A program made the position numbers and the translations under genes. This document shows, one piece after another, positions 17,053 through 17,863 of a stretch of 64,000 bases of DNA; positions within the stretch are counted from its first letter, which is position 1; the number at the start of each line of letters is the position of its first letter. Source of the DNA: Blastococcus aurantiacus (GTDB lineage Bacteria > Actinomycetota > Actinomycetes > Mycobacteriales > Geodermatophilaceae); NCBI RefSeq assembly GCF_900102425.1, contig NZ_FNBT01000001.1, positions 310,001 through 374,000 on the forward strand, given 5' to 3'. Under the pieces are notes generated by a model that saw only the letters and a list, made by a program, of their open reading frames with translations, did not search any database and was not told the origin of the DNA.

Positions 17053-17231
17053 CGCGAGGCACCGGACCGCCGAACCCCGTCCGCCGGAGCCTGACTCCGA
17101 GCCACCCCAGGACGGGGGCGGGGGAACCACCACCGGCGCGCACGCGCGCCTCGGGGTGAAGCCGCCCCTGCCCTCCGGGCACGCGGCCGGGCACCGATTC
17201 GCCCGAACCCGACAGCTCACCTCGCAGGCGG
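17053..17231 (+). promoter_or_regulatory. ydaO-yuaA type c-di-AMP riboswitch upstream of rpf
   Basis: The conserved blocks of this large aptamer are present in order: CCGCCGAACCCCG, GGAGCCTGACTCCGAGCCA, CGGGGGAACCA, CGGGGTGAAGCC, a GGGCA segment, CGCCCGAACCCGACAGCT and ACCTCGCAGGCG. It ends 17 nt before the rpf start. In Streptomyces this class controls rpfA and other cell-wall hydrolase genes, shutting them off when c-di-AMP is high. The expression platform is not obvious, since the GGAGG of rpf follows directly after the 3' P1 strand. Confidence 0.9.
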
Positions 17232-17248
17232 TGATCGGAGGATCACCC

Positions 17249-17863
17249 ATGTCCACGCACCTCTCGACCACCCCTGCCCGCAGGCGCGTCTTCCGCGGGG
17301 GCACCGTCCTGGCCGGGGCCGCGGCGATCGGCATCGGCGTGCTCGCCGCGCCGGCCTCCGCTGCGACGCACGACTGGTCCGGCGTCGCCCAGTGCGAATC
17401 CGGCGGCAACTGGAGCATCAACACCGGCAACGGCTACTACGGCGGGCTGCAGTTCAGCTCTCCGACCTGGCTCGGCCACGGCGGTGGGGAGTTCGCCCCC
17501 CGGGCCGACCTGGCCGCCCCCGCGGAGCAGATCGCGGTGGCGGAGCGGGTCCTGCTCACCCAGGGCGTCGGCGCCTGGCCCACCTGCGGCACGCAGCTGC
17601 GGTCCGGCACGACGGCCGTCGCCCCTGCCCCCCGGGCGGCGGCGCCCGCACCTCGGGCCGCAGCACCGGCACCGGCCGCCTCCCTACCGGCGGCGCCCAC
17701 GACGTCGTCGGGCGGCGACTACAGGGTCCGGCGCGGGGACACCCTCGCGAAGATCGCCCGGGCCCAGGGAGTCGACGGGGGCTGGCGCGCGCTGTGGGCG
17801 ATGAACCGGGACGCCGTCCGGAACCCGAACGTGATCCGGGTCGGTCAGCAGCTCTCCCTCTGA
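17249..17863 (+). CDS. rpf: Secreted resuscitation-promoting factor (Rpf domain + LysM)
   Basis: 204 residues. A signal peptide covers about residues 1-40 (RR..., a hydrophobic stretch, then APASAA). The Rpf lysozyme-like domain is [20 protein letters not shown], with the catalytic Glu in CESGG, then [17 protein letters not shown] and a disulfide partner in PTCG. A Pro/Ala linker with repeated APAPRAAAP follows, then one LysM domain ([13 protein letters not shown]...[11 protein letters not shown]) that binds peptidoglycan. Rpf enzymes cleave peptidoglycan and promote exit from dormancy or spore germination. The ATG has GGAGG 9 nt upstream. Expression is probably set by the c-di-AMP riboswitch in front. 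Confidence 0.95.

Follow-up and report, generated by a model that had tools for sequence, protein, structure and literature searches.

Introduction

Riboswitches for cyclic di-AMP (c-di-AMP) upstream of genes for resuscitation-promoting factors (Rpf) are for the most part already in print, with published accounts from Streptomyces, Corynebacterium and mycobacteria. The leader of S. coelicolor rpfA binds c-di-AMP in vitro, the nucleotide is reported to trigger premature transcription termination at this gene, and rpfA mRNA is elevated five-fold in a disA mutant of S. venezuelae (PMC10117811). The S. coelicolor rpfA switch has been described as lacking a canonical terminator (PMC9960051). A c-di-AMP-rich mutant of M. 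smegmatis has less rpfA mRNA (PMC9338955), and c-di-AMP riboswitches have been predicted upstream of M. tuberculosis rpfA and C. glutamicum rpf1. That c-di-AMP is linked to Rpf and exit from dormancy, as the first-pass annotation of the present DNA had pointed out, is according to these accounts not new.

Regarding the mode of control, the switch of C. glutamicum nlpC (cg2402) was found to lower a reporter with its mRNA unchanged, and a CTCC/GGAG pseudoknot was put forward there as a hypothesis (PMC9960051). A review lists ydaO among the riboswitches whose docking occludes the ribosome binding site (PMC10907184), and the crystallised 108-nt ydaO RNA contains a pseudoknot (PMC5393176). In our own reading of the printed sequence, the strands of the latter would be ACUCCUUCG in the loop and CGAAGGAG in the tail.

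Here we analyse the rpf leader found in the window, i.e. the whole 64,000-nt stretch of Blastococcus aurantiacus DNA under study, together with its relatives. The element itself is expected, and what we add is a sharper mechanistic hypothesis: the comparison of relatives suggests that rpf is switched off by hiding the Shine-Dalgarno sequence in the aptamer's own pseudoknot.

Results

A predicted c-di-AMP riboswitch in front of rpf

The leader matches the c-di-AMP (ydaO) family RF00379 at 17090-17245 of the + strand (cmscan; 53.0 bits, gathering score 38, E 1.9e-9), in agreement with the aptamer named in the first-pass annotation. No other Rfam family scored above threshold anywhere in the window, and a permissive cmscan of 16880-17300 (421 bases), up to E 1, returned nothing besides RF00379. 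The UAGGG block of the Rfam consensus is absent from this copy and replaced by CCGGG, a variant common to the relatives and to rpf leaders of Streptomyces and Mycobacterium; the block is a consensus feature on which binding is not known to depend. We assign the element, from its sequence, to the RF00379 c-di-AMP riboswitches and here to an actinobacterial GACAGC subtype, a label coined in this analysis; binding of the ligand is presumed. With a diadenylate cyclase domain among its gene products (PF02457, 94.2 bits), the host can probably make c-di-AMP. The gene behind the element is, as annotated earlier, that of a resuscitation-promoting factor, with PF06737, which we take to be the Rpf domain, and a LysM domain in the reading frame that opens at ATG 17249 and ends with TGA 17861-17863. 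The features of the locus are as follows.

17066-17071, + strand: P1, 5' strand ACCGCC, pairing with 17227-17232
17075-17082, + strand: P2, 5' strand CCCCGTCC, 8 bp with 17110-17117
17110-17117, + strand: P2, 3' strand GGACGGGG, partner of 17075-17082
17118-17123, + strand: core helix, 5' strand GCGGGG, 99.2% of cells paired, in agreement with the Rfam bracket
17153-17160, + strand: core block GGGGTGAA, invariant in the 20 rows of alignment A1
17189-17204, + strand: last aptamer hairpin GGGC-ACCGATTC-GCCC, stem 97.5% paired, loop providing the putative pseudoknot 5' strand
17194-17198, + strand: putative pseudoknot 5' strand CCGAT, complement of 17234-17238
17205-17217, + strand: core GAACCCGACAGCT (GACAGC subtype), invariant in A1
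17220-17225, + strand: core helix, 3' strand CCTCGC, partner of 17118-17123
17227-17232, + strand: P1, 3' strand GGCGGT, partner of 17066-17071
17230-17247, + strand: local hairpin GGTGATC-GGAG-GATCACC, predicted in folds
17234-17238, + strand: putative pseudoknot 3' strand ATCGG, covering the first two Shine-Dalgarno bases
17237-17241, + strand: Shine-Dalgarno sequence GGAGG, 7 nt before ATG 17249
17249-17863, + strand: rpf, 204 aa, Transglycosylase-like domain (PF06737, 1.4e-33) and LysM (PF01476, 5.5e-9)
17883-17911, + strand: hairpin after rpf, 12 bp, without T run, possible transcript end
18022-19776, + strand: treZ-like gene, alpha-amylase family (PF00128, PF11941)

Anatomy and corrected boundaries of the aptamer

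The helices were evaluated on A1, an alignment of 20 rpf-leader rows from which the divergent leaders L061 and L063 were left out, and in which the 5' side is incomplete for L046 and L054. The corrected P1, P2, core helix and loop stem display 97.2% standard pairs and four pairs changed on both sides; neither figure was reached in any of 500 shuffles, and slid-partner controls were 46-59% paired. For one of five measures, the number of further pair types, 56 of the 500 shuffles did as well. In P1, assessed over 18 rows, four of the six pairs are invariant and the fifth occurs as C-G, U-G or U-A, while the outermost (A17066) fails in 10 rows. P2, which encloses a loop of 27 nt, is paired in 100% of the A1 cells, with both sides changed at two pairs in two rows (CCCTGCCC/GGGCAGGG). 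P2 is also fully paired in 21 of 21 parsed leaders, in forms including CCCTGCCC/GGGCAGGG and GACCGCCC/GGGCGGTC, a figure flattered by the parse, in which the best-pairing position was picked and L046 left out. In the region of the GACAGC core, an 18-mer (CGAACCCGACAGCTNACC) occurs in at least 176 of the class's 394 genomes, among the matches listed.

The P1 implied by the Rfam match behaves differently: three of its four pairs could be tested on A1 and were 55.4% standard with zero compensatory changes, the fourth being a non-standard combination in the window. In the aligned rpf leaders of relatives, a conserved block, CCGCC-NAA-CCCCGTCC, sits 5' of Rfam's start. Given 97.2% pairing for the corrected helices starting at 17066 and 17075 versus 55.4% for the Rfam-implied P1, the covariation places the 5' boundary upstream of Rfam's 17090, which is misplaced. 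The start of 17053 in the first-pass annotation is nearer, although 17053-17065 constitute a conserved 5' flank outside the paired aptamer. The aptamer end that it had put 17 nt before rpf is nearly right, with 16 nt counted between the end of P1 at 17232 and the ATG, and GGAGG indeed comes right after P1, starting four bases past it. The analysis hence corrects a boundary that an RF00379 match would bring into annotation.

The CCGG of the 5' flank (17062-17065) is complementary to the CCGG at the start of the P2 loop (17084-17087), and by eye this pair covaries in several relatives (CCGA/TCGG, CCGC/GCGG), with CTCGTCC/GGACGAG in L061 and L063. A three-partner switch, in which the flank CCGG would pair alternately with the P2 loop or with the TCGG at the Shine-Dalgarno sequence, was considered and is disfavoured, as the Shine-Dalgarno side does not vary with the flank in a by-eye comparison.

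Loop and tail fit each other across relatives

In the window, the loop ACCGATTC of the last aptamer hairpin and the tail GATCGGAGG behind P1 are complementary: CCGAT can pair with ATCGG, whose GG opens the GGAGG, so that two of the five Shine-Dalgarno bases would fall within the pseudoknot. Loop and tail were parsed in 150 of 151 leaders of the family and the order. Among 112 distinct ones, the strength of the own loop/tail duplexes was reached in 0 of 5000 permutations, with 0 of 5000 also for the 90 leaders of the GUCAGC type and 5 of 5000 for the 22 of the GACAGC type. When copies of the GACAGC type were drawn from many genera (at least 154 distinct ones among those listed), the outcome was again 0 of 5000. 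For 71 actinobacterial representatives, less than 70% identical in loop and tail and likewise taken from the copies listed, the own score was 14.8 versus 12.2 (sd 0.30) for permuted combinations and was reached in 0 of 10,000 permutations, with relatedness among copies not fully removed in any of these tests. Strong own helices occurred in 40 of the 71, versus 21.9% of foreign pairings. The helices are diverse, among them CTCTCC/GGAGAG, CTCACG/CGTGAG, CCTGAC/GTCAGG, CCGATC/GATCGG and CCTCTCGA/TCGAGAGG. Thirteen records (Paenibacillus, Cohnella, Bacillus, Cytobacillus, Chloroflexota, Eremiobacterota) were excluded from the actinobacterial counts; dropping Paenibacillus L295 reduced the copies from 142 to 141 and the representatives from 72 to 71, with the result nearly unchanged. 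L033, in which the P1 end was not found, was left out.

In 137 of the 141 distinct actinobacterial copies listed, a start codon with an upstream Shine-Dalgarno-like motif (GGA and AGG being the shortest forms accepted) follows within 36 nt of a GC whose last base is 17229 in the window. Measured in this way, the distance to the start codon is 19 nt in the window and has a median of 19 nt across the 137 copies, so that there is scant space for a terminator. Of these 137 Shine-Dalgarno motifs, 112 have one base or more inside the best loop/tail helix and 93 have two or more; the remaining 25 lie outside it, in some cases because a chance pairing outscored an overlapping helix. In 30 runs that combined foreign loops with these tails, the mean was 86.1 of 137 (sd 4.7, maximum 96) for one base or more and 75.7 (sd 5.8, maximum 88) for two or more. 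The overlap as such is therefore only moderately above chance, because a pyrimidine-rich loop will contact a purine-rich tail whether or not it is its own, as the 86 of 137 for foreign loops show. The main evidence for the putative pseudoknot is instead the fit of loop and tail beyond permutation, achieved with many different helix sequences.

The same layout is present in one Streptomyces (L201) and one Mycobacterium (L198) leader before PF06737 genes. In two members of the genus (L158, L161), a riboswitch of the GACAGC type shows the pairing CTCTCG/CGAGAG; a LysM domain is encoded behind L158, and the gene following L161 looks alike.

The interval between aptamer and start codon

An intrinsic terminator, i.e. 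a hairpin with a T run, was not found between the aptamer and the start codon. Over 16850-18060, a scan that demands a T run and misses hairpins without one returned no terminator-like site, in line with the earlier remark that no clear terminator is visible; in a GC-rich genome this is weak evidence. The same interval contained no sigma-70-like site. A plain fold of the leader favours the local hairpin, with P1 unclosed as drawn, and folds of this kind cannot show pseudoknots.

Other copies in the genome and the family

The genome contains six RF00379 copies, and the genes behind the other five encode M23 (two), NlpC/P60 (one), SLT (one) and a protein with no Pfam match (one). These five belong to the same family but have a GUCAGC core, in contrast to the GACAGC of the window. 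Among the matches listed, 22 other members of the genus carry four to nine copies each, and at least 55 of the 57 family genomes have at least one. G059 and G052 have at least 12 and 11 copies among the matches listed, with several Rpf-LysM protein matches in each. RF00379 lies directly before rpf in 20 of 30 rpf loci, that of the window included, and two RF00379 motifs are both absent in 8 of the 30. Leaders of Blastococcus, Modestobacter and Geodermatophilus (L245, L247, L288) resemble this group.

In the GUCAGC-type copies of the genus and the order, CGGAG occurs within 40 nt in 90 of 124, and GCCGCC or CGCCGC, which could pair with the GGCGG of P1, then follows in 77 of 124. This tail is perhaps a second expression platform. 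A loop CTTCC with a tail GGAAG is seen in many GUCAGC-type leaders, in L001-L005 and relatives from the genus.

Neighbourhood of rpf and treZ

Downstream of rpf lies an alpha-amylase-family gene, which we presume to be treZ-like; the name treY-like is used on the same assumption. By a count of coordinates, 19 of 57 family genomes have rpf no more than 4 kb upstream of a treZ-like gene in the same orientation, and the proximity recurs in G006 and G018. At 9986-19776 and in relatives (L037-L057, L163-L167), rpf with its riboswitch has this neighbour, and a treY-like gene frequently precedes rpf at a short distance. A treY-like match lies at most 1.5 kb upstream in 13 of the relatives' 16 rpf-treZ loci; the treY-like gene and rpf are separated in the window by a MOSC gene and a further reading frame. 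RF00379 scores above cut-off in 16 of the 17 rpf-treZ loci with a readable leader, the window included and the treZ-adjacent copies of G059 and G065 lying outside this set. In the remaining one, L045, the riboswitch elements are readable although no Rfam match lies above cut-off, and the RF00379 match of L048 is not the copy before rpf.

A strong hairpin follows rpf in all nine rpf-treZ spacers that were folded, namely those shorter than 200 nt among the 17 loci, a count that comes with no shuffled control. These hairpins render co-transcription of rpf and treZ doubtful. A trehalose link, with c-di-AMP steering treZ via a shared mRNA, was considered and rejected in view of the hairpins; control at the level of rpf translation would also leave treZ unaffected. 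Plain inheritance may account for the conserved placement of rpf and treZ.

Discussion

Based on the comparison of relatives, we propose that the rpf leader operates as a translational OFF switch whose expression platform is the pseudoknot of the aptamer itself, a reading to which we attach a probability of roughly 0.65. When abundant, c-di-AMP would stabilise the aptamer and P1 would close. In conjunction, the loop CCGAT of the last hairpin would pair with ATCGG just behind P1, and since this tail runs into GGAGG, ribosome binding would be blocked and little of the wall-cutting Rpf would be made. A drop in c-di-AMP would open the pseudoknot and permit translation of rpf. In this scheme we infer the physiological signal, the binding of the ligand, the level at which control is exerted and the OFF sign, the last following published work on C. 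glutamicum nlpC (PMC9960051). The translational control envisaged in the first-pass annotation holds as far as sequence can show, with a loop/tail fit that none of the 10,000 permutations reached. The foreign-loop control weakens the overlap count, and our confidence was lowered slightly for this reason, from 0.68 to 0.65.

The principal alternative is transcriptional attenuation, in which the ligand-bound aptamer halts RNA polymerase within the leader without a canonical terminator. It would be in keeping with the premature rpfA termination reported for S. coelicolor (PMC10117811) and with the lower rpfA mRNA of the M. smegmatis pde mutant (PMC9338955). However, the interval 16850-18060 holds no terminator-like site of the T-run type, the 19 nt from P1 to the ATG, counted as above from the GC ending at 17229, equal the median of the 137 copies, and the conserved feature behind P1 is a Shine-Dalgarno sequence that fits a loop of the aptamer; we therefore regard attenuation as unlikely here. 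The local hairpin GGTGATC-GGAG-GATCACC might also be the true platform, holding the Shine-Dalgarno sequence until closure of P1 either opens it, making the switch ON, or swaps it for the knot. Its overlap with P1 at 17230-17232 makes the two mutually exclusive, and the hairpin is predicted in the leader fold, where it would compete with the outer P1 as well as with the pseudoknot. Only 7 of the 20 A1 rows have it in this form, whereas the loop/tail fit is general, which renders such a platform quite improbable. Shorter look-alikes occur in a few more A1 rows, and in close relatives the hairpin might have a modulating effect on the switch.

Decay of the aptamer to an unresponsive form is the least credible of the explanations considered, and we give it very little weight. 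The copy does have the lowest score of the six in the genome (53 bits), and CCGGG replaces the UAGGG block of Rfam. The low score stems, however, at least partly from Rfam's misplaced P1 and P2, the combination of CCGGG and GACAGC is common to relatives and to the rpf leaders of Streptomyces and Mycobacterium, and the helices are maintained by compensatory change. Returning to the translational OFF switch, its extension to the GACAGC-type actinobacterial switches in general, rpfA included, is more tentative and stands at slightly less than even odds: these would form a compact class in which one pseudoknot strand is the Shine-Dalgarno sequence, with translation affected first and changes in mRNA being secondary. 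No publication presenting the Shine-Dalgarno sequence as a covarying pseudoknot strand was found in an open-access literature that lacks key primary work of 2013-2017, which is weak evidence for novelty.

Among the known systems most similar to the locus is Streptomyces rpfA, where the same aptamer family precedes an Rpf gene, and the Streptomyces rpf leaders L201 and L203 have the same GACAGC core and a loop/tail pairing over the Shine-Dalgarno sequence. Termination is reported for Streptomyces rpfA, whereas the sequence of the present leader favours translation. The C. glutamicum nlpC switch is described as lacking a canonical terminator, as OFF and as most likely translational, in agreement with our proposal, but its target gene differs from rpf. 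The fit between loop and Shine-Dalgarno sequence offers a testable answer to this printed disagreement between termination in Streptomyces rpfA and translation in C. glutamicum nlpC, as across Actinobacteria it predicts translational control and pinpoints the bases to change. Bacillus ydaO/kimA and the crystallised ydaO RNA share the aptamer core with the window element, the pseudoknot strands of the crystal being our own assignment. In B. subtilis ydaO, ligand binding is reported to form a terminator (PMC9960051), whereas in the window element it is the start codon of rpf that follows.
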